From assembly GCF_000027145.1 (NCBI RefSeq), contig NC_013891.1:1984001-2048000 (forward strand): a DNA stretch of 64,000 nt, written 5' to 3'. Shown here in pieces: positions 32,360 to 61,562 of this stretch. Position numbers and translations under genes: made by a program. Origin of the DNA: Listeria seeligeri serovar 1/2b str. SLCC3954 (GTDB lineage Bacteria > Bacillota > Bacilli > Lactobacillales > Listeriaceae). The notes under the pieces were generated by a model. The model worked only from the letters and a program-made list of their open reading frames with translations. It was not told where the DNA came from and did no database searches. Numbering within the stretch: the first letter of the stretch is position 1; each line of letters begins with the position of its first letter.

Positions 32360-32360
32360 A

Positions 32361-43595: not shown

Positions 43596-43630
43596 AAGGT
43601 TTCCTACTTTTTCGTAGGAGCCTTTTTATA
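43596..43630 (+). terminator. Terminator of the ilv-leu operon
   Basis: AAGGTTTCCTAC pairs with GTAGGAGCCTT (one bulge), followed by TTTTTAT, directly after the ilvA stop. Confidence 0.82.
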
Positions 43631-43738
43631 TTACAGTTTACCCCGCTGTTATAGTAACAGTTTATTGCAAGAATCGGTTTAAAATCTTTTGTTTACGGAT
43701 ATAAAGTAGTATAATGGCTATATAGAAAATAAACTGTA
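43631..43738 (+). promoter_or_regulatory. alsD promoter region with TAACAGTTT repeats
   Basis: Two tandem copies, TTACAGTTT (43631-43639) and TAACAGTTT (43655-43663), lie upstream; the second forms a 15-bp palindrome, CTGTTATAGTAACAG (43646-43660). The -10 TATAAT is at 43710-43715, preceded by AAAGTAG. A further AAACTGTA copy (43731-43738) is downstream of the start. The same layout occurs at alsS. Confidence 0.6.
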
Positions 43739-43786
43739 TTATTTATAATCAACTTTTTATATATAACAATTCAAGGAGTGGCAAAT

Positions 43787-44506
43787 ATGGACACAGTAAG
43801 AAAAAATCGATTATTTCAACATTCAACAATGGCGGCACTTGTCGGCGGGTTATTTAGTGGGACAACTAGTTTCAAAGAATTACTCCAACACGGCGACCTT
43901 GGTATCGGAACGCTTGACGAATTTGACGGAGAACTAATTATTTTAGATGGTGAAGCTTTTCAAATCCGTTCAGACGGGCATGCTTATAAAGTAAAGCCAG
44001 AAGACACAACGCCATACGCCAGCACTACTTTCTTTGATGCAGATACTTCTTTTAAAGTGTCAGAACCTACCTCAAAACAAGTTGTTGAGGAAAAAATTGC
44101 AGATTTAGTACAAGGACCGAATGTATTTTATGCTGTGAAAATGACAGGAAACTTCCGATATGTTGATACTCGAGTTGTCCCAAAACAACAAAGACCTTAT
44201 CCGCCATTAATTGAAGCGGTGAAAGAACAACCAACGTATCATTTTGAATATATTACTGGTACGATTGTCGGTTTTTGGACCCCTGCTTATATAAGCGGAA
44301 TTGGTGTCTCTGGTTACCATGTTCATTTTATTGATGATATGCGTAAAATTGGTGGTCATGTGTTTGACTACGAGATGTTAGAGGGTACAGTCGAAGTTGC
44401 ACAACAAACAGAATTCGAATTACAATTACCACAAACAACGGAATTTCTTAGAAGTGATTTAAGTACGCCGGATATGTTGGAACAGATTGAAGCTGCGGAA
44501 AATTAA
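43787..44506 (+). CDS. alsD: Alpha-acetolactate decarboxylase
   Basis: It decarboxylates acetolactate to acetoin, a neutral overflow product. It has 239 residues; metal-binding His residues lie in SGYHVHFIDD and GGHVFDYE. The start at 43787 has AAGGAG 8-10 bases upstream; a GTG at 43778 overlaps that site. Unlike Bacillus, it is not next to alsS, which is 12 kb away, but both promoters share motifs. Confidence 0.94.
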   Translation: MDTVRKNRLFQHSTMAALVGGLFSGTTSFKELLQHGDLGIGTLDEFDGELIILDGEAFQIRSDGHAYKVKPEDTTPYASTTFFDADTSFKVSEPTSKQVVEEKIADLVQGPNVFYAVKMTGNFRYVDTRVVPKQQRPYPPLIEAVKEQPTYHFEYITGTIVGFWTPAYISGIGVSGYHVHFIDDMRKIGGHVFDYEMLEGTVEVAQQTEFELQLPQTTEFLRSDLSTPDMLEQIEAAEN

Positions 44507-44550
44507 AAAAAGCGCCAAAGTTAATTAAATTAACTTTGGTGCTTTTTTTA
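44505..44550. terminator. Bidirectional terminator between alsD and pdp
   Basis: AGCGCCAAAGTTAAT and ATTAACTTTGGTGCT form a 15-bp stem (one G-U) with a tiny loop and A/T runs on each side. Confidence 0.93.
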
Positions 44551-45843
44551 TTCTGTAATTACTTTATGAATAAGGGTTGGTGCTACTGCTTGATTGGAAA
44601 TTTCAATGTTTTCGTAGATTTTTGCTTTAACGTTTTCTACATCTTCTTGGTCTGCAAAAATCGTTACTAGTGGTTCGCCTGCTTTGACAGGGTCTCCTAC
44701 TTTTTTACGGAGCATTAAACCGACCGCTAGATTAATTTCGTCTTCTTTTGTTGCGCGTCCAGCACCTAAGATCATTGCCGCGATTCCAATTTCGTCAGCG
44801 ATAATTTTGCTTACAAAGCCGGATGTTTTTGCTGGAACTTCGATTTGGAATTTAGCTTGTGGAAGTTTTTCAGGATGATCGACAATGCTTGCGTCGCCAC
44901 CTTGGTTAGCAAGGAAGGTCTTGAATTTTTCTAATGCTGCACCGTTTTCGATTACTTCGATTAGCTTGGCGCGCGCTTCTTCTAGTGTTTCCGCTTGTTT
45001 TGCTAAGACAACCATTTGGCTACCTAAAACTAATACTAATTCGGTTAAGTCTTTTGGACCTTCTCCTTTTAACGTATCAATTGCTTCTTTGACTTCTAGG
45101 GCGTTTCCGATTGCTTCACCAAGTGGTTGAGACATGTCAGAAATAACGGCCATTGTATTACGACCGACATTATTGCCGATTCGAACCATTGCATGAGCTA
45201 GATTTTCGGCATCTTCATCGGTTTTCATAAATGCACCAGCACCTGTTTTCACATCAAGCACGATGGCGTCTGCACCGGCAGCAATTTTTTTACTCATAAT
45301 CGAGCTGGCGATTAACGGGATGGAATTAACGGTTCCTGTTACATCACGAAGCGCGTACATTTTTTTATCAGCAGGAGTTAAATTACCTGATTGCCCAATA
45401 ACGGCTACTTTATCGCGATTGACTAAATTAATAAAATCTTTTTTGTCTAGTTCAATGTGGAAACCTGCGATTGATTCTAGTTTATCAATAGTTCCACCAG
45501 TATGACCTAAGCCACGACCGGACATTTTTGCAACTGGAACGCCGACTGCTGCAACTAGTGGGGCAAGAACAAGTGTTGTTGTATCGCCTACACCGCCTGT
45601 ACTATGTTTATCGACTTTGATTCCTTCAATTGCGGATAAATCAATCGTATCTCCGGAGCCAACCATTGCCATTGTTAAATCGGCGCGCTCCTCGTCATTC
45701 ATATCTTGGAAAAAGATGGCCATGGCTAGAGCACTTGCTTGATAATCTGGAATTTCCCCATTCGTATACCCATCAATGAAAAACTGAATTTCTTCGGTTG
45801 ATAAAGCTTTACCATCCCTTTTTTTGGAAATAATATCCACCAT
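44548..45843 (-). CDS. pdp: Pyrimidine-nucleoside phosphorylase
   Basis: It phosphorolyses thymidine, deoxyuridine and uridine to base and sugar-1-phosphate. It has 431 residues of the nucleoside phosphorylase II fold, with [10 protein letters not shown] (phosphate site), [17 protein letters not shown] and [10 protein letters not shown]. The start at 45843 follows CGGAGA by 8 bases; the open frame runs 18 codons further up without a ribosome site. Its product feeds DeoB and DeoC. Confidence 0.94.
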
Positions 45844-45904
45844 TCTCACTTCTCCGTCACCCTTTCTTTTCGTCCACTTTAGCATTTTATGTATCATTTT
45901 TGAG

Positions 45905-45936
45905 AACGGTTACACTTTTCAAGTAAACCGTTTTAC
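45905..45936. promoter_or_regulatory. Operator-like inverted repeats upstream of pdp
   Basis: AACGGTT (45905-45911) and AACCGTT (45927-45933) face each other, and GTAAACCGTTTTAC (45923-45936) is itself a near-palindrome with a CG-containing centre, like LacI-family operators. The LacI-type gene is directly upstream. The assignment is inferred. Confidence 0.5.
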
Positions 45937-45979
45937 TAAACAAGAACATGTACTAACATGCTCACTATATCGTACTCAC

Positions 45980-46990
45980 TTACTTGTTGTCAATACTTTT
46001 TGTACTGCTTCGATTGATTAGAGAAATATCGAGTAAACGATTCTCTAATTTCTCGGTTGGGTTTTGAATATTTTTTAGTAATAGTTCTGCAGCTATCGCG
46101 CCAATTCCATAAATCGGCTGGCGAATTGTCGTAAGCGGTGGCGTCATATATTCGGAAAGTTCAATATCATCAAAGCCAATCACACTTAAATCATTTGGAA
46201 CATTTAGGCCTTTTTCAAGAGCAGCACGATATGTCCCCATTGCCATTAAATCATTGGTCGCAAAAATCGCTGTGATACTCTCTGTTAATAATTTTTGTGT
46301 AGCAACATAACCAGCATTCATCGTTTGGTCCCCGCTCACAATCCAACTTTCTTCTACAACGAGATGATATTTTTTCATGCATGCTAAATATCCTTCATAA
46401 CGTTCGTGTACATTATAGAAAGACGTGTCTGAAATAATAATACCAATATTTGTATGCCCGAGATTAATTAAATGTTCGGTTGCCATGAATCCGCCTTTAA
46501 AATCGTCAATAGCAATATTGCCTTCCGGACGAGGATTACGCTGCCGATCGAGTAAAATGTACGGGGCGCGCTTTTCTTCCATGCGAGCAATGACGCCAGA
46601 AAGCAGAATATTCGGGCTGGCGATAATTAAGCCATCGACAGCCCGGTGTAATAATTCTTCTACGTATAAATCTTCGCGCGCTTTATCATTAGAAGAGTTA
46701 CAGAGCATAATCATATAACCTTCTTTATTTAAGTAATCTTCCGCCCCTTTAACCATTTGTGAAAAAAATGGATCGGTGACTTCCGGAACAATCATCCCGA
46801 TGGTGTTTGTGTGACTAACAATCATATTTTTAGCGAAAAAATTTGGTTTGTATGACATTTCTTTTGCTGTTTTAAGAACTTTCGCGCGGGTTAAATCGCT
46901 AAATCGTTCTCCTTTGCCATTCAAAATTTGAGAAATGGTCGTAATCGAAACGCCTGTTTTTTCTGCTATTTCGCGGATGGTTGCAGCCAT
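45980..46990 (-). CDS. LacI-family transcriptional regulator
   Basis: A 336-residue repressor: the N-terminal helix-turn-helix (TIREIAEKTGVSITTISQILNG, hinge RFSDLTRAKVL) and a periplasmic-binding-like sensor domain. It sits between pdp and deoC on the same strand, so it could sense a sugar phosphate or a nucleoside. The effector is not recognisable. An inverted repeat (TCTTCTTA...TTAAGAAGA, 47008-47034) lies just upstream of its start and may be a self-operator. Confidence 0.86.
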   Translation of the reverse strand: MAATIREIAEKTGVSITTISQILNGKGERFSDLTRAKVLKTAKEMSYKPNFFAKNMIVSHTNTIGMIVPEVTDPFFSQMVKGAEDYLNKEGYMIMLCNSSNDKAREDLYVEELLHRAVDGLIIASPNILLSGVIARMEEKRAPYILLDRQRNPRPEGNIAIDDFKGGFMATEHLINLGHTNIGIIISDTSFYNVHERYEGYLACMKKYHLVVEESWIVSGDQTMNAGYVATQKLLTESITAIFATNDLMAMGTYRAALEKGLNVPNDLSVIGFDDIELSEYMTPPLTTIRQPIYGIGAIAAELLLKNIQNPTEKLENRLLDISLINRSSTKSIDNK

Positions 46991-47069
46991 TTAAACTCCC
47001 CCAGTCAGATTATCTATTCTTCTTATTTTGACATATTTAAGAAGATTAATAAAGGGGTTTCATAGAAAA

Positions 47070-47741
47070 TTAGTAATTATCTGGTTTAGCTGATTTTTCG
47101 CCGGAAACGATTGCGACTCCTGCGCTTGCACCAATTCGAGTTGCGCCGGCTTCAATCATTTTCTCAACGTCTTCTTTTGTGCGAATTCCACCAGATGCTT
47201 TTACGCCAATATTTGGTCCAACTGTTTTGCGCATTAGAGCGATATCTTCTGCAGTTGCGCCACCAGTTGAAAATCCAGTAGATGTTTTAACAAAGTCTGT
47301 TCCTGCTTTTACAGCGATTTCACAAGCGCGAACTTTTTCTTCATCTGTTAACAGGCATGTTTCGATAATAACTTTGACTAGCGCGTGGCCTTTTGCCGCT
47401 TCAACTACAGCGTGGATGTCGCGTTCCACTAGCTCGTCATTTTTATCTTTTAACGCACCAATATTGATGACCATATCGACTTCTTTAGCGCCGTTTTGGA
47501 TAGCGTCTTTTACTTCAAAAGCTTTTAGTTCTGGTGTGTTTGCTCCAAGCGGGAAGCCAATAACAGTACAAACAACTGATTCTCTTCCTGCTAATTGTTC
47601 CGCAGATAATTTCACCCAAGTCGGATTAACACAAACGGAAGCAAAGCCGAATTCTCTCGCTTCTTTGGTAAGTGTTAAAATTTGTTCTTTCGTTGTGTCC
47701 GGTTTTAGGGCTGTGTGGTCAATCATTTTAGCAATATTCAT
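47070..47741 (-). CDS. deoC: Deoxyribose-phosphate aldolase
   Basis: It splits deoxyribose-5-phosphate into glyceraldehyde-3-phosphate and acetaldehyde. It has 223 residues: [10 protein letters not shown] near the start, the Schiff-base lysine in [15 protein letters not shown], and a second conserved Lys in VKASGGIRT. The start at 47741 has AAGGAG 9 bases before; the open frame extends 13 codons further. It completes the deoxynucleoside route with PunA, Pdp and DeoB. Confidence 0.95.
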
Positions 47742-47804
47742 TTCAAAAAACTCCTTTATAATTGGATTTGACTTTATCATAGCGTACTACAGAACATTTG
47801 TAAA

Positions 47805-48752
47805 CTAATCTATGAAATTTTGTTCAAGTAAGTTTTTCGCAGTAAATTGGTCTGTAATAAAGTGATTGGCATACCCACCACGAAGCGCGCCGTGAATCGC
47901 TTTTAATTTCCGCTCGCCACCTGCTACGAGAATGGTAGTTTCTTTTTGTTTTAAGTCTTGCAAATTAATGCCAATGGTCCGTTCATCCATTTTCTGATCA
48001 GCGACTTCTCCGTTAATAGTGAAAAATCTTGAACAAATATCGCCAACTGCTTTTTCTTTTAAGCGATTTTTTTCCACATCAGAAAAGTAGCCTAATCGAA
48101 ATAGTAGAGCCTCGTCGCGCACTGTTCCCACTGTAAAAATGGCCACATTTGCTTTTTTTCCTAGGTCAATAATATTTTTAATGTGTCTATCTGCTTCGAC
48201 CATTTGTTTAGCCACTGGATTGTCCAGCACAACCGGGAGTGGTAATGAAACAGGCGACGTATCAAAAGAAGTTCCAAATAGCGCTAAAGTTTCCGCAGCA
48301 TATGTATTAACATCCGAATGACTAACGCCACCTTTTAACTGTACTACTTTTATTTCAGTTTTTGAAGGGGTGAGTTTTTGGGCAATTTTATACATGGTTG
48401 TTCCCCAACTTACACCTAGAATGTCGCCGTCACGGATAATTTCTGTTAAATATTCTGCCGCACTTTGGCTAATTTGCTTGGTTATTTCTGTGTAGTCACT
48501 TGTTTGACTAAAAGCAACGGTAACATTTTTTAGTTGGTATTTTTCTTTTAAAGCTGTTGCTAGTTCGGTGAGATTCGCAAATGGATCTTGGACTTCGATT
48601 TTAACATAGCCTTTTGTTTTGGCATTTTGTAGTAGTCTGGAAACAGTCGGTCGCGAAACACCAAGCCTAGCTGCAATTTCTTGTTGGCCAAAATCAGCTT
48701 GATAATATAGTCTCGCAACTTCCACACTAAGCTGCTCTTTTTGTTTGTCCAT
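47805..48752 (-). CDS. SorC/DeoR-type regulator of deoxynucleoside genes
   Basis: A 315-residue regulator with an N-terminal helix-turn-helix (YYQADFGQQEIAARLGVSRPTV, split) and a C-terminal SorC-type sugar-binding domain. By its position before deoC it is the likely equivalent of Bacillus DeoR, which senses deoxyribose-5-phosphate. A strong inverted repeat overlaps its own -35. Confidence 0.86.
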   Translation of the reverse strand: MDKQKEQLSVEVARLYYQADFGQQEIAARLGVSRPTVSRLLQNAKTKGYVKIEVQDPFANLTELATALKEKYQLKNVTVAFSQTSDYTEITKQISQSAAEYLTEIIRDGDILGVSWGTTMYKIAQKLTPSKTEIKVVQLKGGVSHSDVNTYAAETLALFGTSFDTSPVSLPLPVVLDNPVAKQMVEADRHIKNIIDLGKKANVAIFTVGTVRDEALLFRLGYFSDVEKNRLKEKAVGDICSRFFTINGEVADQKMDERTIGINLQDLKQKETTILVAGGERKLKAIHGALRGGYANHFITDQFTAKNLLEQNFID

Positions 48753-48773
48753 TTTTTCCCTCCTGCTTTTTCT

Positions 48774-48824
48774 TTTTAGTATAACCCAAGAATGAGCAGA
48801 GTTCGAGGTTAAAATGGCTCGAAC
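48774..48824 (-). promoter_or_regulatory. Promoter and operator of the SorC/DeoR gene
   Basis: A perfect 7-bp inverted repeat, GTTCGAG (48801-48807) and CTCGAAC (48818-48824), covers the -35 TCGAAC (minus strand, 48801-48806). With a 17-bp spacer it reaches the -10 TATACT (48778-48783). This suggests autorepression. Confidence 0.6.
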
Positions 48825-48825
48825 G

Positions 48826-48865
48826 CAAAAAAGCAGAAATCCCCTTAAAGAATTTCTGCTTTTTT
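48826..48865 (-). terminator. Terminator of the mannose-family PTS operon
   Basis: Minus strand AGCAGAAAT / ATTTCTGCT followed by TTTTTTGCG, next to the IIA stop. Confidence 0.88.
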
Positions 48866-49282
48866 CTAAAAATCTTCTTCTACTTCTTCCACTGGGGTGA
48901 CATATTGATAAATCCCCAACTTGCCTGTGTCAGTTGCTTGTTTTGCTAGTTCAGCTAAAGTAAATGTTTCTCTGCCTAAAAACACTTCTAGTAACAATGG
49001 GATATTGACTCCGGTGACAAGTTCTGTTTGGTGATAATTCGCTAAAAGTCGAACTAATGCGTTGAACGGGGTACCACCTTTTAAATCAGTTAGAAATAAA
49101 ATCCCTTCTGTCAAATCAAGTTTTCCTACTTCAGCAATTATTTTCGTCTGTAGATTTTCAGCTGATTCACCTTCATCAAACGATACAAAACTTGTATTTT
49201 CTTGAATACCGCAAATCATTTCAGCTGAATGAATTAATTCTTTTGCGGCATTCCCATGTGTGCAAACAAAAATTGCTTTCAT
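48866..49282 (-). CDS. PTS mannose-family IIA component
   Basis: A 138-residue phosphocarrier of the mannose-class PTS (EIIA-man fold). The phosphorylated His is His9 in FVCTHGNAAKEL, and FLTDLKGGTPFNALVRLL is the family's mid-region motif. It is last in the operon IIB-IIC-IID-SIS-SIS-IIA. Confidence 0.92.
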   Translation of the reverse strand: MKAIFVCTHGNAAKELIHSAEMICGIQENTSFVSFDEGESAENLQTKIIAEVGKLDLTEGILFLTDLKGGTPFNALVRLLANYHQTELVTGVNIPLLLEVFLGRETFTLAELAKQATDTGKLGIYQYVTPVEEVEEDF

Positions 49283-49298
49283 TTCCCAAACCGCCTTT

Positions 49299-50294
49299 TT
49301 AATAGTCTAGCTGACGATAATATCTTCTAATTTCCATTGGATGACAGTTAATTTGCTCCACATGGACATCAATTCGATTATTGACTGCATGGATAATAAA
49401 TGGTGAAAGCGCCCCTCTGAATTTTGGAGAAATCCCTGGTAGTTCATAATCTTTAGCGTCAATGACCGTATAGTTAGCACAGATTTGCGGAATGAACTTC
49501 GCTACTCGTTCACTAAGCGAGCGCTGGCTATCTTCTGTTACATAAATAGTTACAGGCGTATCGCGTTCGACAATTTCAAACATGCCGTGGAAAAATTCAT
49601 GCGCTTCAATTGATTTCGTTTTAATCCAGTGTTGTTCTTCCCAGTAACACATTGCGTATGAATAAGTTGCGCCCCACTGATTTCCCGCTCCAACAAAATA
49701 GTGAATGTCATCTTGGTGGTGTTTCTGCGCAAAAGCTTTCCCAAATTCGTCCGCTGATTTCTCTACAGCGACAATCCCTTTGGCAAAATGTTGATCCATT
49801 TCTTGGTAAAATTCATCATACTCGTCAAATTCTCCCGCTAAGTACATGAAGCGATCAGCGACCATGAAGAATTTCAGTTGTTCGTTTAATGGGTAAGAAA
49901 TTAAGTGGTCTACCAGTTTCGCAAGTTCTGCCTCACTTTTGTCAATGAATCCCAATACCGTTGCACCAATTTCATTACATTTTTTGACTGCATCTACTAC
50001 TTCTTCTGTGCTACCTGTGACAGACGAAATTACAACTAACGTATCTTTTGTCACTCGTTTATTTCCAGTTGTTAAAAACACTGCTGCATTTTCATAAAAA
50101 GTTTCAAGTGCTGTTTTTTCTTTCATATGAACAACAGCTTGCATAGCAGACGCATAAGTTCCACCAATTCCGAGCCAGCAAATATTACTGAAACCACGAT
50201 TCTGAATTTCATCAACTATTTCATTAATTTGCGGACGTAATTTTAACGCCCCTTCCATATTTTCCAACACTTTTTGTTCATCAAACTTTAACAC
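49299..50294 (-). CDS. SIS-domain sugar-phosphate deglycase/isomerase (FrlB-like)
   Basis: A 331-residue protein with two SIS domains, binding phosphosugars; ICWLGIGGTYASAMQA and VVISSVTGSTEEVVDAVK are the substrate-site motifs. It resembles FrlB-type deglycases, which split sugar-amine 6-phosphates, more than the aminotransferase GlmS, since no glutamine amidotransferase domain is present. It is one of two SIS proteins in a mannose-PTS operon. Confidence 0.75.
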   Translation of the reverse strand: MLKFDEQKVLENMEGALKLRPQINEIVDEIQNRGFSNICWLGIGGTYASAMQAVVHMKEKTALETFYENAAVFLTTGNKRVTKDTLVVISSVTGSTEEVVDAVKKCNEIGATVLGFIDKSEAELAKLVDHLISYPLNEQLKFFMVADRFMYLAGEFDEYDEFYQEMDQHFAKGIVAVEKSADEFGKAFAQKHHQDDIHYFVGAGNQWGATYSYAMCYWEEQHWIKTKSIEAHEFFHGMFEIVERDTPVTIYVTEDSQRSLSERVAKFIPQICANYTVIDAKDYELPGISPKFRGALSPFIIHAVNNRIDVHVEQINCHPMEIRRYYRQLDY

Positions 50295-50315
50295 AATTCA
50301 TTCCCACTTTCTATT

Positions 50316-51380
50316 TTATATTTTGGATTTTGTTATTTCATCAAATTCTGGAAAAGCAGATATTTCTAAGTTCACATTTTTTTCTTGAGAGATTTTAAAA
50401 GATAATAAATGGACCGGAATCGTCATAAATAGCGGAGTAAGTAGCTCATTCACTTGCAAATTAAGTTCTAAATCAGACGTTTGCTTTTTACCTACCCCAG
50501 CATAGATTGTCCGAACTTTTTCAACATGCCCTACTAAAAAGTCTTTTAGTTTGTCGGCTCTATTTTCAAGTAAGCCTTGTGGTTCGATGAAAATAATATA
50601 ATCTTCTGGCGCTAAACCGATATACGGGCCATGCATGTACTCTTCTAATTCCTTACCAAAAGCCGTGATACGAATGGTTTCTGTTACTTTTGTTTCTCCC
50701 TCACGAGCAACCCCATAAGCTGCACCATATCCGATGAAAAAAATTCGTTTTGCTTCCATTAATTCCGCAGTATGCGAATCAACCCAACTTGCTGCTTTTT
50801 CAATAACTTGGGGTAACTCACGAGCAATTGCTTGCATTTCACTAAGATCAGTTTCGTAATCAGTAGCTTGGACTTTTCCTTGTAACTGTGCCATTTCAAG
50901 CGCTAATAGGTTTAAAACAAGGATGGTGGCACTATAGCCAAGCGTGACATAAGGCATTTCTTCCTTATCCATTCCCATACTAATTACATTGGTTGCTTTT
51001 TTAGCGATTGGACTTTCTAAATCGCTTGTGAGTGTGAAAACTGTTCCACCGCTTCGTTCAATTTCCTCCACTAAATGAATAGTTGAGTAACTATGCCCAC
51101 CTTGCGAAATGGCGATGTACAATGTGTCTTTATTCAAATGCAACATATAATTTGCCGAAACTGATGGTTCTTCTACATAAACTGGAATTTGTAATTTCGC
51201 GCTCATATAAAGCTCTGCTGCAAAGGCTGCATTTGAACTTGAACCTGTCGCAAAAATAACGACAGCTCGATAATCTTGATGTTTCATTTCGAGTAACTCT
51301 TTTAAAATCACTTTACGGTTACTGATAATATGCTGATAAACCGCTTGTTCTGACCTAATGTAATAATCCATATTTTTCAT
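50316..51380 (-). CDS. SIS-domain sugar-phosphate deglycase/isomerase, second copy
   Basis: A 354-residue double-SIS protein, with VVIFATGSSSNAAFAAELYM and IAISQGGHSYSTIHLVEEI as phosphosugar motifs. It differs clearly from its neighbour, so it likely acts on a different sugar-amine phosphate. Pairs like this handle fructoselysine-6-P and glucoselysine-6-P in Enterococcus and Salmonella. Which one acts on which substrate cannot be told. Confidence 0.75.
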   Translation of the reverse strand: MKNMDYYIRSEQAVYQHIISNRKVILKELLEMKHQDYRAVVIFATGSSSNAAFAAELYMSAKLQIPVYVEEPSVSANYMLHLNKDTLYIAISQGGHSYSTIHLVEEIERSGGTVFTLTSDLESPIAKKATNVISMGMDKEEMPYVTLGYSATILVLNLLALEMAQLQGKVQATDYETDLSEMQAIARELPQVIEKAASWVDSHTAELMEAKRIFFIGYGAAYGVAREGETKVTETIRITAFGKELEEYMHGPYIGLAPEDYIIFIEPQGLLENRADKLKDFLVGHVEKVRTIYAGVGKKQTSDLELNLQVNELLTPLFMTIPVHLLSFKISQEKNVNLEISAFPEFDEITKSKI

Positions 51381-51392
51381 TACTTCACCTAC

Positions 51393-52214
51393 TTATTTTA
51401 ATAAGCCTGTATAAGCACCTAAAATACCAATTCCTGCAATTAATAACAGAATCCAATGTGCTTTCAAACCTTTTTTATCTAACCAAAAAATAAAGAATGT
51501 AAATGCTAACGCTAAAATTCCAGGGACAATACCATCGAAAACACTTTGAACGGTTACGGCTTCATCTCCTGAACCAAATTTCATTGGCATATTGATGTTA
51601 ACCATCGTCGCAACCATTGCTCCAACAACACCTAAACCAATAATCGAAGCACCGTAAGATAATTTATCCATCAACCCAGTCTTTTGGATTTTTTCAATAA
51701 AGTTTGCACCAATATTGTAACCAATGAATAAACCATAATAACGAGTCAGAATAGCTGGAATATTGAAAATAAGAAGGAACAAAATCGGTCCTAAAATATT
51801 TCCTTGTAATGCAAGTGAGGTTCCAATCCCAGTTGCGATAACTCGTAATGTTCCCCAGAAAAAGGAATCGCCAATACCGCTTAGTGGTCCCATCAACGCT
51901 ACTTTGATATTATTGATGGAATCTGTATCAAATGTCTCATCTTTCGCTGATTGTTCTTCCATTGCAATCGAAATCCCAAGTGGAAAAGTAGAAAGCCATG
52001 GTGTCACATTATAAAATTCTAAATGTCTCTGATATGAGGAAATTCGTTTTTCCTTATCATTTTTAAAAATTTTGTTTAGTGCTGGTAGCATCGAAAAGCC
52101 ATAACCCATGTTGGATTGTCGTTCATAGTTCCATGACCATTCCATCGTGAACGAGCGCCAAAAAACTTTCATTAAATCTTTTTTCGTTAGTACATCAGAA
52201 CTCTTCATCTTCAT
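51393..52214 (-). CDS. PTS mannose-family IID component
   Basis: A membrane component of the mannose-class sugar permease, 273 residues. The N-terminal SFTMEWSWNYERQSNMGYGFS and MEEQSA are family motifs, with several helices towards the C-terminus. It pairs with IIC to form the channel. Its start overlaps the IIC stop by 20 bases. Confidence 0.93.
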   Translation of the reverse strand: MKMKSSDVLTKKDLMKVFWRSFTMEWSWNYERQSNMGYGFSMLPALNKIFKNDKEKRISSYQRHLEFYNVTPWLSTFPLGISIAMEEQSAKDETFDTDSINNIKVALMGPLSGIGDSFFWGTLRVIATGIGTSLALQGNILGPILFLLIFNIPAILTRYYGLFIGYNIGANFIEKIQKTGLMDKLSYGASIIGLGVVGAMVATMVNINMPMKFGSGDEAVTVQSVFDGIVPGILALAFTFFIFWLDKKGLKAHWILLLIAGIGILGAYTGLLK

Positions 52215-53019
52215 AGTTTATCCCTCCATCATTAGCAAGTGCTGGTTCTCTGCTACCTCCGCTTGGTCCGTTGTGATCATTATTTTTAAGTGTAGCGTAA
52301 CCTGTCAAAATAAGTGCTAAACAAGCGCCAAAAATGGCTACTCCTGTAACTGGTACTTTTAAATAAACTGCGAGTGCAAAACCAAAAACGAAAAATACCG
52401 CATTCTTTTTGTTTACCATTAATTTGAGAAGTAAAGCAAAACCGTAAGCTGGTAATAAACCAGTTGCAATGCCTAAGCCAGCAATAACAAAAGCTGGAAT
52501 TGCATCAAGGACATTTTGGATAACGGGGCTACCAACAAGATAAGATGTGGCAACAATAATCCCGATTGGTAAATTGATAGATAAGAAACCACCCAAGAGC
52601 TGCATTCGACTTATCCCTTTTGAATTACCTTCTAAAGCATACTTATCTGCTTTATGTACAAAATAAGGTAATACGAAAATAAAACATAAATTTTTAACAA
52701 CTAATACAAGTGAGGCAATTGGAATACCAAGTGCAAGTGCTACCGCTGTACTTTCGCCCGTAGAAATGGCAAATGCAGTCCCTAAAATACTCCCTGAAAT
52801 AATTTCTGGTGGAATGGATGCGCCAATGGAAAATGAACCTACAAAAGCTAATTCTAATGTCGCTCCCATAACAATCCCCATCTGCACGTCACCCATAATT
52901 AACCCTGCAAGTGTACATGTTACAAGTGGCCGCGATAACATTGATGAACCAAACAAATACTCACCATTTGCAAGCATGGCTGCGAGTGCAAGCAAAAGTG
53001 CTGTTCCTAATTGTTCCAT
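52195..53019 (-). CDS. PTS mannose-family IIC component
   Basis: The sugar-translocating membrane subunit, 274 residues and about eight helices, with family blocks RPLVTCTLAGLIMGD and GATLELAFVGSFSIGAS. The C-terminus carries a charged tail. It is 23 bases after IIB. Confidence 0.93.
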   Translation of the reverse strand: MEQLGTALLLALAAMLANGEYLFGSSMLSRPLVTCTLAGLIMGDVQMGIVMGATLELAFVGSFSIGASIPPEIISGSILGTAFAISTGESTAVALALGIPIASLVLVVKNLCFIFVLPYFVHKADKYALEGNSKGISRMQLLGGFLSINLPIGIIVATSYLVGSPVIQNVLDAIPAFVIAGLGIATGLLPAYGFALLLKLMVNKKNAVFFVFGFALAVYLKVPVTGVAIFGACLALILTGYATLKNNDHNGPSGGSREPALANDGGINYEDEEF

Positions 53020-53042
53020 AATTTATCCCTTCTTTCGTTTTT

Positions 53043-53510
53043 TTATGCTTCAAAATTCACTTTTTTCTCATTCGGTACTTGTTGCATGAAAACATCAATA
53101 GCGTCTTTTTGCAGTTCTTGTAGTTTTTCTACTTCTTCGGCAGTTAAATTGATTGCTTTCGAGAAATTTGTTGTTCCTTCTCTTTGTTTTGTGCCGCCTA
53201 AATTCAACATTGGAATCTTACCATTTGTTCCTTTTATCAATTTGTAAGCGTCTCCAACTGATTCCACCACAACTAATAAATTATATTTGTCGGTAACACC
53301 TGAATTGATGGAAGCAATACTTTCGTCAATACTCTTCATCACTAGTTTTGCAGCTTCGGGTTTAGCAAGACGAATGGCGGATTTACGAAAATCATCTGCA
53401 GCCACCCCATCATTTGCCACTAAAATTGTATTAACATCTAATGCATTAAACCAGGAAACTGCTACTTGCCCATGAAGTAAACGGTGATCTACACGTAGAA
53501 ATTGAATCAT
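53043..53510 (-). CDS. PTS mannose-family IIB component
   Basis: A cytosolic 155-residue phosphocarrier; the phosphorylated His is His13 in RVDHRLLHGQV. It takes phosphate from IIA and passes it to the sugar. The start at 53510 follows AAGGAGG by 8 bases; an open frame continues 11 codons upstream without a ribosome site. Confidence 0.92.
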   Translation of the reverse strand: MIQFLRVDHRLLHGQVAVSWFNALDVNTILVANDGVAADDFRKSAIRLAKPEAAKLVMKSIDESIASINSGVTDKYNLLVVVESVGDAYKLIKGTNGKIPMLNLGGTKQREGTTNFSKAINLTAEEVEKLQELQKDAIDVFMQQVPNEKKVNFEA

Positions 53511-53529
53511 TTTCTTTTCCTCCTTTTTC

Positions 53530-54237
53530 TTAGTTAAAATCAACTACATATTTGGTTGACTCAGCATCTTCATAATGATATTGAATAGCAATAGGCAACT
53601 GATTTTCGGCATAAAAAAGACTACTTAGTTTAAAAACAGGATCATTTTCTTTTAAATGCATATACTTCATTTGCTCATTGCCAGCTAAAACAAGTTGAAG
53701 TTCCTGTTCAAGCTCAAATAATTTATATTTACCTGAATTAACAAGTTCGATAATGTTGATAATATGAAGATCTTTTACTTGTAAATCAGGATATAAACCG
53801 AGTGGTAAAATCAAGCGATCAAGTGTAACAGTGTGTTCATTCTTTTGGATGAATTTGACAGAGTAAACTAATTCATTTTCTTTTATACCAAACTTTTCCG
53901 CATAGAAGGTACCGGCTTTGCGAACATAGAAATCTTTAATATCTTTCTTCGCATCTTCCTTGGTATCATTTTTTATAACACCTGTCATTTCTAAAATGTT
54001 TTGTGCAGTTAATTTTGGTTCGACGTATAAGCCAATACCATTTTTACGTATAACTAAGCCTTCCGCGACTAATAAATCAACTGCACGACGAATCGTGGTT
54101 CGACTACTAGAAAAAATTTCTTGCAGTTCAGATTCATTCGGCATAAGCATTCCCGCTTTATATTCATCGCGATTAATTTTCTCTCTTAACTCGTAAGCTA
54201 TCACTTCGAATAGTGGCTTTTTAGCACTCATCTTCAC
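53530..54237 (-). CDS. GntR/HutC-family regulator (downstream copy)
   Basis: A 235-residue regulator with an N-terminal winged helix (SELQEIFSSSRTTIRRAVDLL) and a C-terminal UTRA sugar-sensing domain. It is coupled to the previous regulator by a 4-base GTGA overlap; an ATG at 54231 is an alternative start. FrlR in Bacillus, which controls fructoselysine use, is the same family type. Confidence 0.86.
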   Translation of the reverse strand: MKMSAKKPLFEVIAYELREKINRDEYKAGMLMPNESELQEIFSSSRTTIRRAVDLLVAEGLVIRKNGIGLYVEPKLTAQNILEMTGVIKNDTKEDAKKDIKDFYVRKAGTFYAEKFGIKENELVYSVKFIQKNEHTVTLDRLILPLGLYPDLQVKDLHIINIIELVNSGKYKLFELEQELQLVLAGNEQMKYMHLKENDPVFKLSSLFYAENQLPIAIQYHYEDAESTKYVVDFN

Positions 54238-54965
54238 TCATCCTCCAAGTAATCAAATATATTTTTCGCATTGATTTTATACTTAATTTGATCACCAATT
54301 AGATATTGTTTACTGTACTCAAACGGCTCGTCATTTTGGTCAAATGCCTTACTCACTACTTCAAAAAGTGGTGTTTGCTCTTTGACTTTTAACACATTCG
54401 CCAAGTCTTCATTCGCTGATACAAAGCGTAATTCCTCGCGTCCGTATGTAGGCTTTATCTGGAAGCGTTCTTCTAACACATGGTAAAGTGATGTGTTATT
54501 TAAATCTATTTGTTCAATCCCTGGAAAACGCGCGCTATCTAGATACGATATTTCATAAGAAAAAGGTCTTCCTTCAACACTCCGCAATCTGACCAATTTA
54601 TAAAGCGGATTTTTTATGTCTGTTGTTAAAAAATGATTTACTTCTTTTACACCTTTTGTTATTTCACTCGAAAGTACGGTAACAGTTTGGTCAGAAGGCA
54701 ACTGGCTACTCATTGAATTCATCTTCAAAATATTAATCGTTTGTTTTGGATTGATTTCAATTCCTTTACGGCTTCTTTTTTGGATGACTGCTTCTTTTTC
54801 AAGCGTATCAAGTGATCTTCTTAATGTGGTTCTACTTACTCCTAATTCCGCTTCAAGTGTTCTTTCGGACGGAAAATCTAATTCGCCCCTTGCTGTCTTT
54901 TCTTGAATGAGTTGCCTTAATTGTTCTTCACTCTGTACAGCAGGCGATAAATCTTTGTATTCCAT
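54234..54965 (-). CDS. GntR/HutC-family regulator (first gene of the PTS operon)
   Basis: A 243-residue HutC-type regulator with an N-terminal winged helix (PSERTLEAELGVSRTTLRRS) and a UTRA domain. Having two related regulators in tandem ahead of one PTS operon is unusual and fits a two-substrate system. It is the first gene after a strong promoter with a cre site. Confidence 0.86.
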   Translation of the reverse strand: MEYKDLSPAVQSEEQLRQLIQEKTARGELDFPSERTLEAELGVSRTTLRRSLDTLEKEAVIQKRSRKGIEINPKQTINILKMNSMSSQLPSDQTVTVLSSEITKGVKEVNHFLTTDIKNPLYKLVRLRSVEGRPFSYEISYLDSARFPGIEQIDLNNTSLYHVLEERFQIKPTYGREELRFVSANEDLANVLKVKEQTPLFEVVSKAFDQNDEPFEYSKQYLIGDQIKYKINAKNIFDYLEDE

Positions 54966-55040
54966 AGCTACACCTCTTATTTATCAATATCTATCCAGCT
55001 TAACAAAAGATACAGGTTAACGTTTTTTTAATACCACTTT

Positions 55041-55069
55041 ATTGTAAACGGTTGCATCAAAGTTGTCAA
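55041..55069 (-). promoter_or_regulatory. Promoter with cre site for the PTS operon
   Basis: Minus strand TTGACA (55064-55069), 17-bp spacer, TACAAT (55041-55046). TGCAACCGTTTACA (55043-55056, minus strand) matches the cre consensus with one mismatch and overlaps the -10, consistent with CcpA repression. Confidence 0.78.
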
Positions 55070-55083
55070 TAGCATTTTAAAAT

Positions 55084-55119
55084 AAAAAAAGATGAAGCGC
55101 ACACGGCAACTTCATCTTT
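55084..55119 (-). terminator. Terminator of the aldo/keto reductase gene
   Basis: Minus strand AAAGATGAAG / CTTCATCTTT with a 12-base loop, then TTTTATTT. Confidence 0.88.
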
Positions 55120-55129
55120 GCTATTTAAA

Positions 55130-56125
55130 TTATTTTTTTGTTGGTAATGCTCCAACCACTGGATGAGGAATATATAATTCTTCTAAGTAGTTCACTTCTG
55201 TTTCCGAAAGTTTAATATCGAGTGCTGCTACTGCACTTTCCAGATGTCTTTCTTTTTGCGCTCCGATAATTGGAGAAGTAATTCCTTGTTTAGTTAACAT
55301 CCATGCTAGAGCAATTTTATCTCTTGTCACTTGATGTTTCTCCGCTAATTCAGCCACACGCTCGATAATTCCTTTGTCCGAATCTTGAGTACCATCATAT
55401 TTAGATTTTTGAATGGCATCCGTTTCTGACCGATAAGTAGTTTCAGTAAAGTCACGAGTTAGCCTTCCAGAAGCAAGCGGGCTATATGGTGTTATCGCAA
55501 TTTTTTCATCACGACAAAACGGAATCATTTCTCGTTCTTCCTCGCGGTAAATCAAATTGTAATGATTTTGCATCGAAACAAATTTAGTCCAACCATTTTT
55601 TTCAGCAACGCGTTGTGCTTTTTGGAACTGCCAAGCATACATCGCGCTGGCTCCGATATAACGCGCCTTCCCTGATTTAACAACATCATGCAAAGCGTAC
55701 ATCGTTTCTTCAATAGGAGTATTTTCATCAAAGCGGTGAATGATATATAAATCAACATAATCCGTTTCTAAGCGTTGTAAGCTATGATCAATTTCACTTA
55801 AAATCGCCTTTCTAGATAATCCCCCACCATTGGGACGCTCTGGACGCATGCTTGAATGCACTTTGGTCGCAAGTACAATATCATCTCTATTTGCATAATC
55901 TTTGAGTGCACGACCAACAATTCTTTCACTTTCTCCATAGGAATAAATATTGGCTGTATCAAAAAAATTAATCCCTAAGTCCAGCGCTTTTTTTATAATT
56001 GGGCGGCTGTTCGCCTCATCTAAAACCCATTTATGCACCCACTTGTCTTTATCACCAAACCCCATTGTTCCCAAACAGATTTTGGAAACGTCCATTCCAG
56101 TATTACCAAATTTAAGATATTCCAC
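55130..56125 (-). CDS. Aldo/keto reductase
   Basis: An NADPH-dependent oxidoreductase of the AKR superfamily, 331 residues. The catalytic tetrad is visible as Asp56, Tyr61, Lys88 and His130 (FFDTANIYSYG, ATKV, YIIHRF). The cofactor region is at the C-terminus (SPIIGAQKERHLE). The substrate is unknown; the MerR-type promoter upstream suggests induction by an electrophile or aldehyde. Confidence 0.9.
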   Translation of the reverse strand: MEYLKFGNTGMDVSKICLGTMGFGDKDKWVHKWVLDEANSRPIIKKALDLGINFFDTANIYSYGESERIVGRALKDYANRDDIVLATKVHSSMRPERPNGGGLSRKAILSEIDHSLQRLETDYVDLYIIHRFDENTPIEETMYALHDVVKSGKARYIGASAMYAWQFQKAQRVAEKNGWTKFVSMQNHYNLIYREEEREMIPFCRDEKIAITPYSPLASGRLTRDFTETTYRSETDAIQKSKYDGTQDSDKGIIERVAELAEKHQVTRDKIALAWMLTKQGITSPIIGAQKERHLESAVAALDIKLSETEVNYLEELYIPHPVVGALPTKK

Positions 56126-56156
56126 TAAAAACCCCTCCTTGTTATATGTTACTTAT

Positions 56157-56187
56157 AGCATAAACCCTGAATCCCACTCCAAGTCAA
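56157..56187 (-). promoter_or_regulatory. MerR-type promoter with 19-bp spacer
   Basis: Minus strand TTGACT (56182-56187), 19-bp spacer, TATGCT (56157-56162). The spacer starts TGGAGTGGGATTCAGGG, an imperfect dyad (CTTGGAGT / ATTCAGGG). The long spacer and the TTGGAGTG half-site are hallmarks of MerR-family activation. No merR gene is in the window. Confidence 0.75.
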
Positions 56188-56193
56188 GTTTTT

Positions 56194-56231
56194 TCAAAAA
56201 AAGAAAACCTTTACGGAAAATAAAGGTTTTC
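56194..56231 (-). terminator. Terminator of alsS
   Basis: Minus strand GAAAACCTTTA / TAAAGGTTTTC (11 bp) then TTTTTTT. Confidence 0.92.
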
Positions 56232-56241
56232 TAGCGTTTTC

Positions 56242-57939
56242 TTAATAAAATTGGTCTGGTAGCAAAGTTTCTCCTAGTTTGATATTATCACGATAATCAA
56301 TTGGAATATCTACTACTACTGGACCCTCTGTTTCAAGCGCTTCTTTTAAAACATCTGCTAATTCTTCTGGTTTTGTTACTCTAAGTCCTTTTGCACCAAA
56401 ACTTTCTGCAAATTTCACAATGTCAACGTCACCGAAACGAACAGCCGCTTCTTTGCCATATTTCATTTTTTGTTGGAAGGCAACCATGTCGTAGCTGCCA
56501 TCATTCCAAACGAGGTGAACAAGTGGCGCGCGGAGTCTAACGGCAGTTTCTAGTTCCATTGCAGAAAATAAGAATCCACCGTCTCCAGAAATCGAAACTA
56601 CTTTTTCTCCCGGATGAACGAGTGTTGCTGCAATTCCCCAAGGAAGAGCCACACCAAGCGTTTGCATTCCGTTACTGAAAAGCAGGCGACGCGGTTCATA
56701 GGAACGGAAATGACGCGCCATCCAAATATAATGAGAACCAACATCTACGGTCACTGTTACATTATCATCAATTGCCGAACGTAACGTTTGAATGACTGAT
56801 AACGGATGCACGCGATTTGTTTCATCGCTAACTGGCGGAACATCTCTTTCTTCCAAACGATCATGTAATTCTTTTAAAGTGGCTAGTTCTTTATCTGCTA
56901 ATTCTAAACCGCTAAATTTAGCATTTACACGGTCTAATGTTAGCGCAATATTCCCTACTAGTTCGGTCACTGGTTGGTAGTAATGATCAATATCAGCGCG
57001 AATGTCATCTAAGTGGACGATTGTTCGATCTCCAGATGCATTCCACGCTTTCGGATCGTATTCAATTGGGTCATAACCGATTGTAATTACTAAGTCTGCT
57101 TTATTAAGAAGGATATCCCCGGGTTGATTACGAAACAGCCCAACTCTTCCAAAGAAATTATCTTCTAAATCTCGAGAAATAACACCTGCTGCTTGGAAAG
57201 TTTCTACTACTGGGATACTTGTTTTTTGAAGTAAGCGACGGATCGCGCCTGTTACTTCTGGACTTGAGGCACGCATACCTAATAGTAAAACTGGTAATTT
57301 AGCTTTTTTCAAACGAGCGACTAATTTTGCAACTTGCTCTTTTGAGGCTGGTCCGTTTTCTGGTTTAGCTAGTGGGCGAATTGCTTTTACAGGTACGTTT
57401 GGTTCATTCACAATATCTTGTGGCAAACTGATAAAAGCGGCCCCTTGGTTAGGTTCAGCAGCCGAACGAAATGCGTTAGTAATCGCTTCAGGTATACTTT
57501 CGGCGTGGACAACTTCTTCACTGTATTTAGTAATTGGTCGGAATAAAGCAGCATTATCCATTGATTGGTGTGTTCTTTTTAGTCGATCTTGTCTTGTTAC
57601 ATTTCCGGCAATCGCCACAACTGGATCGCCCTCTGCTGTCGCTGTCACAAGGCCTGTTGCAAGATTAGATGCTCCTGGCCCACTAGTAACAAGAACAACA
57701 CCCGGCTTACCAGTTAAGCGCCCAATCGCAGCAGCCATAAACGCTGCATTTTGTTCATGACGACTGACAATCAGTTCAGGACCGCGTTCTTCCATCACAT
57801 CAAACACTTTATCAATCTTCGCACCAGGAATCCCAAATACATGTGTCACTCCTTGGTTAATTAAGCTATCAACAACTAAGTCTGCACCCGATTTACCTTG
57901 TTTCACTAATGTTTCTTGTTCTTTTTCCAGTTTTGCCAT
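56242..57939 (-). CDS. alsS: Acetolactate synthase, catabolic
   Basis: Condenses two pyruvates to acetolactate for acetoin overflow. The 565 residues include the catalytic Glu62 in SRHEQNAAF and the ThDP site from [13 protein letters not shown] to WND. No regulatory subunit gene adjoins it, and it is near the FAD-independent catabolic type. The start at 57939 has AAGG 9 bases before; an ATG at 57948 directly abuts it. Decarboxylation is done by AlsD. Confidence 0.94.
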
Positions 57940-57981
57940 CTTTATCATCCTTTGTTATATAAAATAATTAAATTTAAATAG

Positions 57982-58090
57982 TACAGTTTATATATAATAT
58001 TCATTTACAAGATTTATTATACTACTTAACGTAATTAATGCAAGATTGGCGACTTGAAAACTGTTATATAATTTTACGAAAACTGTTATA
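57982..58090 (-). promoter_or_regulatory. alsS promoter region with TAACAGTTT repeats
   Basis: On the minus strand two copies of TATAACAGTTTT (58079-58090 and 58057-58068, 22 bp apart) lie upstream of TTGCAT (58038-58043), a 16-bp spacer and TATAAT (58016-58021), preceded by TAAGTAG as at alsD. A downstream AAACTGTA (57982-57989) completes the same layout as at alsD. Confidence 0.65.
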
Positions 58091-58133: not shown

Positions 58134-59591
58134 TTATTCTTGTGATGCGCGGTAATCATCATATTGTTTTTGCATTTCTTTCATTACTTTTTTCATTCCC
58201 GCATCGTTTAGTTTATCTTTGAATTTCGCTGTATATTCTACTGGGTCCACTGTTCCAGTAAGAAGCGCTGGAGCAAATTCATTACATACATTGGTAATCG
58301 AGGCTATTTCCGTCCTTACTTTGGAAGAATCAAAGTAGAATCCTAGGCCTGGTGAAGCAACTGATTTATCATTGAACGCTTTGAATTGGTCCCATTTATC
58401 AACTGGTTCATCTTCATATAATTTTAAGATAAAGTGGTTTCCAAGCGCATAAGTAGGCATGCTATAACGTTCTACTCGCGCTGGTAAATCTTGAATCTTG
58501 CCATCTTCTAATTCTTTGTAGTGTGTTCCTTCAATACCTTTGTCAACTAGATTACGCAAATATTCATCTGTGTTTAGTAAATCAAGGAATTTCACTGCTT
58601 CTTTTGGATGTTGACTTGTAACAGATACTGCTTGAATCGCGCCTGTTACAGAATTATTTTTGATGATCGGTGTTTCTGCAATTGGTTGTGTTACTACTTT
58701 ATATTTACCACCAGTATTTTTGTCCCAGATATTTTCTGCGTATGGTTGATATTTTTCAATACGCACAAACCAATTTTCTTTATCATAAGACCATGGATCC
58801 GTAGAAGTTGCAATATCTTTCGTTACATAACCTTTTTCGTAGTAGCTGTGAAGTGCTTTAAGTGTTTCAAGCGTATCAGGTTGGTCGTAGAAATTGACGA
58901 TTTCTCCAGTGTCTTCGTATTGATTGACAGCGAATGGTAGTGGCACAGCATTATCAATCAAATAATCATAGGCAAAAGCTGGTTTGAAATCTTTATTTCC
59001 GCCAATTGGTGTAATACTTGGTTCATTTTCTTTAATAGTTTTTAGCAGTGGCTCTAAGTCGCTAAAGCTTTTTACTTTGGTTACATCCATATTGTATTTA
59101 TCTACTAAATCTTTGTTGAAAACGTACACTTGTTGTTCGCCGACTTCTTTATTGGAAGGAACGCCGTAAATATTCCCATCAATGGTCGCGCCTTGCCAAA
59201 GTACATCATTTAACTCAGCTTTCATTTTCTTACCTTCTTTATCTAAATACTTGTTAAGCGGTAAGAAAGCACCTTTTTGCGAATAAGAAACAAATTCACC
59301 AGCAGCGGTGTAAGCAATATCAAAATTTTCGCCTGAATTGATAACTGTTTGCATTCGTTTTCCGTAGTCGCCCCAGTCAATTTGAGTCATTTCTACTTTG
59401 ACACCGATTTTTTCTTCGGTATATTTATTTACTTCTTTCATAACTTCTTCCGTGTCTTTTTGTGGTGTTCCTATCATGTACCATTTCAGTGTTGGAACTT
59501 CTTCTGCATCTGCTTTTTCATCGCCCCCACAAGCACTTAAACCAAGCAGCAAGCAAAGTGACGCGATAATTACTCCCCATTTCTTTTTCAT
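58134..59591 (-). CDS. Extracellular solute-binding lipoprotein (sugar ABC importer)
   Basis: A 485-residue receptor with a lipoprotein signal ending LSAC (Cys21) and a long family-1-type binding fold, as in LplA/YtcQ for complex sugars. It is last of three transporter genes. The substrate is probably an oligosaccharide or cell-wall-derived glycan. The encoded ATPase is not nearby and is likely shared, as for other Firmicute LplABC systems. Confidence 0.9.
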   Translation of the reverse strand: MKKKWGVIIASLCLLLGLSACGGDEKADAEEVPTLKWYMIGTPQKDTEEVMKEVNKYTEEKIGVKVEMTQIDWGDYGKRMQTVINSGENFDIAYTAAGEFVSYSQKGAFLPLNKYLDKEGKKMKAELNDVLWQGATIDGNIYGVPSNKEVGEQQVYVFNKDLVDKYNMDVTKVKSFSDLEPLLKTIKENEPSITPIGGNKDFKPAFAYDYLIDNAVPLPFAVNQYEDTGEIVNFYDQPDTLETLKALHSYYEKGYVTKDIATSTDPWSYDKENWFVRIEKYQPYAENIWDKNTGGKYKVVTQPIAETPIIKNNSVTGAIQAVSVTSQHPKEAVKFLDLLNTDEYLRNLVDKGIEGTHYKELEDGKIQDLPARVERYSMPTYALGNHFILKLYEDEPVDKWDQFKAFNDKSVASPGLGFYFDSSKVRTEIASITNVCNEFAPALLTGTVDPVEYTAKFKDKLNDAGMKKVMKEMQKQYDDYRASQE

Positions 59592-59609
59592 TTGTTTCCC
59601 TCCATTTTT

Positions 59610-60581: not shown

Positions 60582-60599
60582 ATAAACTCGCCTCCTTTT

Positions 60600-61538: not shown

Positions 61539-61548
61539 CCCTCTTTTT

Positions 61549-61562
61549 TGTAAGTGCTTTCA
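61549..61562. promoter_or_regulatory. cre-like site before the ABC permease genes
   Basis: TGTAAGTGCTTTCA matches the cre consensus TGNAARCGNWWNCA with one mismatch. It lies 11 bases upstream of the permease start, so it could block elongation. Confidence 0.6.

Follow-up and report, generated by a model that had tools for sequence, protein, structure and literature searches.

A putative common operator at the separated acetoin genes alsD and alsS of Listeria seeligeri

In the 64,000-nucleotide stretch of Listeria seeligeri DNA analysed here (the window), alsD and alsS each carry an upstream pair of half-sites TANWACAG and a further half-site downstream, which are probably (at a probability of roughly 0.6) operators bound by a single transcription factor that is encoded elsewhere, acts at the pyruvate node and mainly represses through bridging. 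This factor would read the half-site TANWACAG, the upstream pair being a direct repeat of 22 bp at alsS and inverted around a 9-bp spacer at alsD, and the third, inverted half-site would sit past the -10 element. A multimeric protein may clasp all three half-sites together across 78–102 bp, mainly repressing both genes until an overflow of pyruvate or acetyl-CoA releases them. Surplus pyruvate can be disposed of as acetoin with less acid formed, and no linked AlsR-type regulator is seen in Listeria. An operator common to the acetoin genes and phosphotransacetylase, and in enterococcus-type genomes also to pyruvate dehydrogenase and spx, would offer an immediate route to the regulator and link carbon overflow with the Spx stress response. 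No description of it appeared in the titles or abstract openings of the open-licence PMC literature searched.

The gene alsD (43787..44506, + strand) was assigned to alpha-acetolactate decarboxylase from its open reading frame and PF03306. In the inverted repeat upstream of it, TACAG-N9-CTGTT, the left arm is the half-site TATTACAG (43629..43636, +) and the right arm, supported by conservation, is TATAACAG on the - strand (CTGTTATA; 43646..43653), a half-site that the earlier note had missed. The tandem copies claimed in that note are both present, TTACAGTTT at 43631 and a second direct copy, TAACAGTTT, at 43655..43663 (+). The predicted -10 element TATAAT (43710..43715, +), based on the sequence and the Listeria alignment, is followed 18 bp further on by the downstream inverted half-site CTGTATTA (43734..43741, -). 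The gene alsS (56242..57939, -), assigned to acetolactate synthase from its open reading frame, PF02775, PF02776 and PF00205, could alternatively start at an ATG at 57948. Both half-sites of its direct repeat, the proximal (58061..58068, -) and the distal (58083..58090, -), read TATAACAG, and the tandem copies described earlier, both TAACAGTTT on the - strand, lie at 58058-58066 and 58080-58088, one base off the positions first given (58057 and 58079). A -10 element TATAAT is predicted on the same grounds at 58016..58021 (-), with a possible -35 element TTGCAT, read from the sequence, 16 bp before it (58038..58043, -), and the downstream inverted half-site, TAGTACAG on the + strand or CTGTACTA in the sense of the gene, is located 29 bp past the -10 (57979..57986, +). 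The common -10 was correctly recognized, as was the copy just downstream of the start (AAACTGTATTATTTA at 43731 for alsD and AAACTGTACTATTTA at alsS), and the nearer copy indeed lies 46 bp from the -10 at alsD, whereas at alsS this gap measures 36 bp instead of the claimed 35.

Conservation across the genus constitutes an independent test of the putative operator, and its result is strong, although the species are related and counts of loci and genomes are consequently not independent. The earlier note had named absence of the motif from other Listeria as evidence against it; the 22-bp direct repeat was found at alsS in 22/22 loci, and the best-kept form at alsD, the inverted repeat WACAG-N9/10-CTGTW, in 18 of 23. 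The single inverted half-site past the -10 is present in all 22 alsS and 21 of the 23 alsD loci. The 24-bp tandem pair at alsD occurs in 13/23 loci, and in two genomes (G011 and G024) the second tandem copy is gone and the inverted repeat (TACAG-N9-CTGTTATA) is kept. The gap between the nearer copy and the -10 is constant at 36 bp in 21/22 alsS loci and amounts to 46 bp in 13/23 alsD loci. The unit proposed originally, TWACAGTTT, is better described as the half-site TANWACAG, and the proposal of one regulator for both genes gains support from sites that are shared by alsD and alsS and conserved in Listeria.

The possibility that two AT-rich promoters resemble each other merely by chance has to be weighed against the frequency of each element. 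Taken on its own, the 9-mer TWACAGTTT is weak evidence, since the window contains 5 copies against 2.12 expected, a mild excess that is reached in 5 of 100 shuffles and is compatible with chance. Nor are upstream pairs alone rare: the window holds five, where Markov sequences have 1.02 on average and 7 at most, and eight more lie in 180 kb taken from elsewhere in the same genome. The composite of a pair followed by CTGTAYTA within 40–110 bp, a pattern drawn up after the sites were known, occurs in the window only twice, at alsD and alsS, and was found neither in those 180 kb nor in any of 200 first-order Markov windows, so that the combination is not attributable to chance. Genome-wide counts are less discriminating. 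Eight ACAGTT pairs were matched in the own genome, three of which (alsD, alsS and an OppA/DppE-like gene) were accepted as genuine, since other species have them at the same gene too; loose 22-bp pairs (up to two mismatches) were no commoner in genome scans than the reversed pattern; and a scan with the inverted pattern gave 59 matches against 45 for its reversed control, counts that alone barely exceed the control. Moreover, the sites are kept across genera while the bases between the half-sites change, and chance similarity, which appears extremely improbable, is contradicted by this conservation to the extent that sequence alone allows.

The spacing of the half-sites bears on how such an operator could work. 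In the window, the downstream half-site lies 78 bp (alsD) or 79 bp (alsS) away from the nearer upstream one, yet the -10 occupies different positions between them in the two genes. The same 78 bp are found in the 13 alsD loci with the tandem copy, and at alsS the distance is 78–79 bp in 15 Listeria loci and 67–68 bp, that is, one turn less, in the other seven, with no intermediate values among the 22. In Brochothrix-like genomes it measures 78 bp (G025) and, at variance with this pattern, 86 bp (G026). A distance that is kept though the -10 moves, or that changes by one turn, favours bridging, and looping between the upstream and downstream half-sites thereby appears better supported than could be known when it was first suggested.

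These promoters could instead be activated, with the upstream pair in contact with RNA polymerase and no more than a tuning role for the downstream half-site, and this possibility, to which we give about one chance in four, is consistent with the nearly invariant 36 bp between the upstream pair and the -10 at alsS, with the weak -35 elements, and with the Enterococcus-type pta site, which lies upstream of the predicted -10. On the other hand, the distance between operators is conserved while the -10 moves from alsD to alsS. In addition, Enterococcus/Vagococcus alsS has its site immediately after the -10, and at the Listeria OppA/DppE-like gene the site falls in the interval from -35 to -10. 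Repression is favoured because of these last two positions.

The motif is thus common to alsD and alsS, as first described, but its range has to be extended to other genera and to genes outside acetoin formation. In Listeria, the same repeat precedes the OppA/DppE-like gene, exactly in 18 of 25 genomes (the gene itself was checked in 12), and it precedes pta in two genomes devoid of als genes (G006 and G008), whereas a regular pair at pta occurs in only 3/25 and the pdhA and spx promoters of the two genomes inspected (G000 and G024) carry no pair. Both Brochothrix-like alsSD loci (2/2) have the 22-bp repeat and the downstream site. An inverted or direct repeat is found at 20/23 Enterococcus/Vagococcus alsS promoters (simulated mean 0.27), or 20/24 if L319 (Enterococcus sp. 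MMGLQ5-1), which lacks the site, is included, and at 8/8 Lacticaseibacillus alsS promoters (simulated mean 0.12). By contrast, alsS is without the site in the f2 (0/5) and f4 (0/2) genomes, and only one of seven has it in f9. Across 12 genomes, the recurrent targets of the inverted pattern are alsS (10), pta (5), pdhA (5), and spx (4), the last three in genomes of the Enterococcus/Vagococcus type. Among the 59 matches, 26 and 14 loci (overlapping sets) were followed to a gene; those outside the four recurrent targets are mostly intragenic and a few are intergenic (e.g., L254 and L256), and conserved matches within rplM and pfkA were set aside as coding conservation. The recurrence of the site at acetoin and other pyruvate-using genes in relatives points to one common regulator and suggests the operator of a pyruvate-node regulon whose regulator is unlinked. 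More tentatively, this could be an old regulon of Listeriaceae, Enterococcus/Vagococcus and Lacticaseibacillus that comprises alsS, alsD, pta, pdhA, spx, and the OppA/DppE-like lipoprotein gene under a single multimeric regulator, encoded elsewhere and perhaps YtoI/SpxR-like, that reads TANWACAG in three geometries: as the 22-bp direct repeat, as the inverted repeat spaced by 9 bp, and as an isolated inverted copy beyond the -10 that is looped to an upstream pair at 78–79 bp or one turn less.

The alsSD neighbourhoods that were read have no recurrent regulator gene in common. In Bacillus subtilis, the linked LysR-type protein AlsR adjusts expression of a single alsSD operon, and with it acetolactate synthase and decarboxylase, to overflow and acid. 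The controlled function would be the same here, but the genes lie apart and no LysR-type gene was noticed among the window's open reading frames, read by eye or scanned, in agreement with the earlier note; the regulators encoded in the scanned part are LacI, SorC-like, two GntR, and one AraC-type response regulator. Moreover, the TANWACAG half-sites are unlike the LysR T-N11-A site. AraC-family proteins bind direct half-sites about 21–22 bp apart plus a distant half-site, a similar layout that allows looping, although no AraC-type gene is recurrent beside alsS; the AraC-type response regulator near alsS (61645-63129) is not among the neighbours at the other Listeria or Brochothrix-like loci read.

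LytTR regulators such as AgrA were considered first, as the directly repeated ACAGTT with its period of 22 bp resembles the motif of this family, two ACAGTT-like copies in direct orientation every 21–22 bp or so; both the period and the ACAGTT core are present at Listeria alsS, and an AgrA-like LytTR match is traceable in the genomes. AgrA was nevertheless rejected and is a very unlikely regulator of these sites, given that the conserved core extends to the left of ACAG (TANWACAG) and the Enterococcus and Brochothrix-like sites do not retain GTT, that inverted arrangements occur, that the agr upstream region, inspected in G000, carries no ACAGTT pair, and that the sole LytTR match in G004 and G010 is AgrA-like. 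CcpA, CodY, Rex, and PrfA likewise fit the alsD and alsS promoters poorly: the best matches to their consensus sequences were equalled in 90–200 of 200 shuffles, with the exception of a CodY-like stretch at alsS with three mismatches (23/200 shuffles as good), which has six at alsD.

A YtoI/SpxR-like protein that senses energy or acyl-CoA status and binds several half-sites as a multimer is a possible regulator, with odds of about one to three. The corresponding gene is present (G000:C1:1530444-1531871) and encodes DRTGG, two CBS, and HotDog (4HBT) domains and a weak HTH; a Listeria ytoI mutant reportedly produces more acetate. Pneumococcal SpxR is described as a positive regulator of about 20 genes in addition to the pyruvate oxidase gene spxB (PMC5214746). 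A second study, which also cites a paper on a Listeria ytoI mutant, describes SpxR as a multimer on two inverted repeats of a distal 37-bp element (PMC9888711), so that the likeness lies in an unlinked CBS-HotDog regulator (a candidate in our case), pyruvate metabolism, multimerization, and two repeats at a distal site. Against this, the gene scores 440 bits with the NCBIfam SpxR model, below the curated cut-off of 600, has no pair upstream of itself, and was not found beside dnaE in two Vagococcus-type genomes, where the dnaE neighbourhoods were inspected. Since the published pneumococcal motif, ACTAKWMTAGA, is matched at alsD and alsS no better than by chance (two mismatches at best at both promoters, equalled in 106 and 130 of 200 shuffles), the YtoI/SpxR-like protein is considered only a candidate.

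In the window (G000:C1:1984001-2048000, genome of 2,797,636 bases), alsD, encoding alpha-acetolactate decarboxylase (43787-44506, + strand), and alsS, encoding acetolactate synthase (56242-57939, - strand), are separate genes whose promoters share an operator built from the half-site TANWACAG. The earlier note had described this operator as two tandem copies of T(A/T)ACAGTTT upstream of each gene, a description that suits alsS better than alsD. The alsD copies lie where they had been placed, at 43631 and 43655, while those of alsS are at 58058 and 58080, one base beyond the positions first reported. The 9-mer itself is only mildly enriched, with five copies in the window against 2.12 expected, a number equalled in 5 of 100 shuffles.

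Conservation in other Listeria had been set beforehand as a refuting test, and the motif is kept upstream of both genes across the genus, as an alignment of promoter regions from 25 genomes (23 alsD and 22 alsS loci) shows. At alsS, the 22-bp direct repeat of WACAG and the downstream CTGTWY(T/A/C)A are present in all 22 loci; in G005 (L049), three 22-bp units stand in a row upstream instead of two, a natural variant in repeat number. At alsD, 14 of the 23 loci carry a direct pair (13 with 24-bp spacing and one, in G007, with 21 bp), 18 carry an inverted repeat WACAG-N8-11-CTGTW with a spacer of 9 or 10, and 21 carry the downstream element. Since the alsD promoters of G011 and G024 retain the inverted repeat after loss of the second of the direct copies, the inverted repeat is the better description of the alsD site. 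Moreover, the alsS half-site TATAACAG recurs in exact reverse complement at 43646-43653, as CTGTTATA. The two alsD loci without the downstream element belong to G021 and G007. G021 (L030) retains alsD, lacks the site and has no alsS match at E<=1e-200; in G007 (L034, L035), alsD is interrupted by stops and the downstream site is degraded.

Upstream pairs alone are not rare, with five in the window and eight in 180 kb taken from elsewhere in the genome as nine 20-kb stretches. The composite of a pair followed by CTGTAYTA within 40-110 bp, a pattern defined after the sites had been seen, occurs twice in the window, exactly at the alsD and alsS promoters, and is found neither in those nine stretches nor in 200 first-order Markov windows. 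Across the genus, the strict composite is present at 18 of 23 alsD and 17 of 22 alsS loci.

Measured from the nearer of the upstream WACAG elements, the downstream CTGT at alsD lies 78 bp away in the 13 loci that have the tandem copy and 78-81 bp away in five further ones. The alsS loci fall into two classes one helical turn apart, 15 with a distance of 78-79 bp and seven with 67-68 bp, and no intermediate values occur. Thus, the operator-to-operator distance is equal within one base at both genes (78 versus 78-79 bp), despite the differing placement of the -10, which precedes the downstream site by 18 bp at alsD and by 29 bp at alsS. This constancy speaks in favour of a loop in which a bound regulator would bridge the upstream pair and the downstream half-site. 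The evidence is suggestive and short of proof, because the alsS variants may stem from only one or two insertion events. Two genomes from a different genus of the family, presumably Brochothrix, have distances of 78 bp (G025) and 86 bp (G026), the latter out of phase; in both, alsS and alsD are adjacent and are preceded by the 22-bp repeat, a downstream CTGTATCATA and an additional inverted copy upstream.

The positions of the sites favour a repressor, as they lie past the -10 at both als genes in Listeria, just downstream of it at alsS of Enterococcus and Vagococcus, and within the core promoter of a gene for an OppA/DppE-like solute-binding lipoprotein (PF00496). A regulator that is not purely a repressor and contacts RNA polymerase would suit the spacing between the nearer copy and the -10 at alsS, which is constant at 36 bp (21 of 22 loci; G024 has 35 bp); the 35 bp previously given for the window is one base short, and the 46 bp given for alsD is correct and recurs in 13 of 23 loci, with 36-70 bp in the remaining measurable ones. 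For the favoured repressor, the signal may be pyruvate or acetyl-CoA.

No recurrent regulator gene stands beside alsSD in the neighbourhoods examined, where isolated regulators recognized from sequence include a MarR-like ORF in L203 and L204, neither of which has the site, and in L180 one that is DeoR-like. Directly upstream of alsS, the window holds an ABC sugar-type transporter, an AraC-type response regulator and a histidine kinase (58134-63920, - strand). Other genes occupy this place in G003, G001 and G014, so that the neighbourhood is variable while the operator is constant. A YtoI/SpxR-like protein encoded elsewhere in the genome is a doubtful candidate: its pneumococcal relative SpxR acts on pyruvate oxidase (PMC5214746) and occupies paired sites in multimeric form (PMC9888711), yet the published pneumococcal motif has no match at the alsD and alsS promoters. 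LytTR/AgrA is unlikely, and the consensus sites of CcpA, CodY, Rex and PrfA fail to fit both promoters. A third LytTR-domain match in the genome (G000:C1:1156111-1156371) contains an internal stop codon and adjoins an ORF resembling a cell-surface protein.

Over the 25 genomes, the third recurrent place of ACAGTTT-N13-17-ACAGTT is upstream of the OppA/DppE-like gene, exact in 18 genomes, with the gene confirmed by translation in 12; in G004 and G010, the pattern occurs with two mismatches, presumably before the same gene. The second copy falls between the -35 (TTTACA) and the -10 (TATAAT), where a repressor would be expected to bind. A terminator-like inverted repeat with a T run, recognized by eye, separates this promoter from the gene (L067, about 2720-2850, - strand); therefore, the product of the promoter may be a short RNA or a leader subject to attenuation. 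Rfam gave no match in L067. In G006 and G008, alsD has no match and alsS only weak ones; in these two genomes, the 22-bp repeat lies upstream of pta. Elsewhere in Listeria, CTGTA/TACAG elements are kept before pta in irregular arrangement, and a regular pair is present at 3 of all 25 pta promoters. The pdhA and spx promoters of G000 and G024 contain no pair.

Beyond Listeria, alsS was found at E<=1e-140 in 52 of 148 genomes of the order (15 Listeria, G026 and 36 others). Upstream regions, examined for 34 of these 36, carry a direct or inverted repeat in 15, distributed by genome group as 12 of 16 in f3, 2 of 4 in f8, 1 of 7 in f9, 0 of 5 in f2 and 0 of 2 in f4. A scan of named records, some probably of the same strains, yielded 80 alsD loci, 35 accompanied by alsS. 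The inverted repeat is present at 18 of 23 Enterococcus/Vagococcus alsS promoters, with a direct repeat in two more, and the direct repeat at 8 of 8 Lacticaseibacillus promoters (simulated means 0.09 and 0.08, respectively); none of the remaining four alsS promoters, one of them named Enterococcus, has a repeat.

Operators shared between promoters are nothing unusual, and the TANWACAG operator is, as far as searches show, undescribed in the open-licence literature. Other features of the window matched in Rfam are the Listeria sRNA rli60 (32245-32428, + strand) and an FMN riboswitch (708-830, - strand).

In 12 genomes scanned, ACAG-N8-11-CTGTAYTA has 59 matches against 45 for the reversed control, so the count alone shows little. 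Unlike their number, the recurrent places of these matches are informative: 10 lie at alsS, five before pta, five before pdhA and four upstream of spx, while the others traced to a locus are mostly intragenic. The inverted operator upstream of spx, which encodes a redox-stress regulator, occurs in 4 of the 12 genomes, all of enterococcus type (L237, L243, L245, L223), a possible tie between overflow metabolism and Spx.
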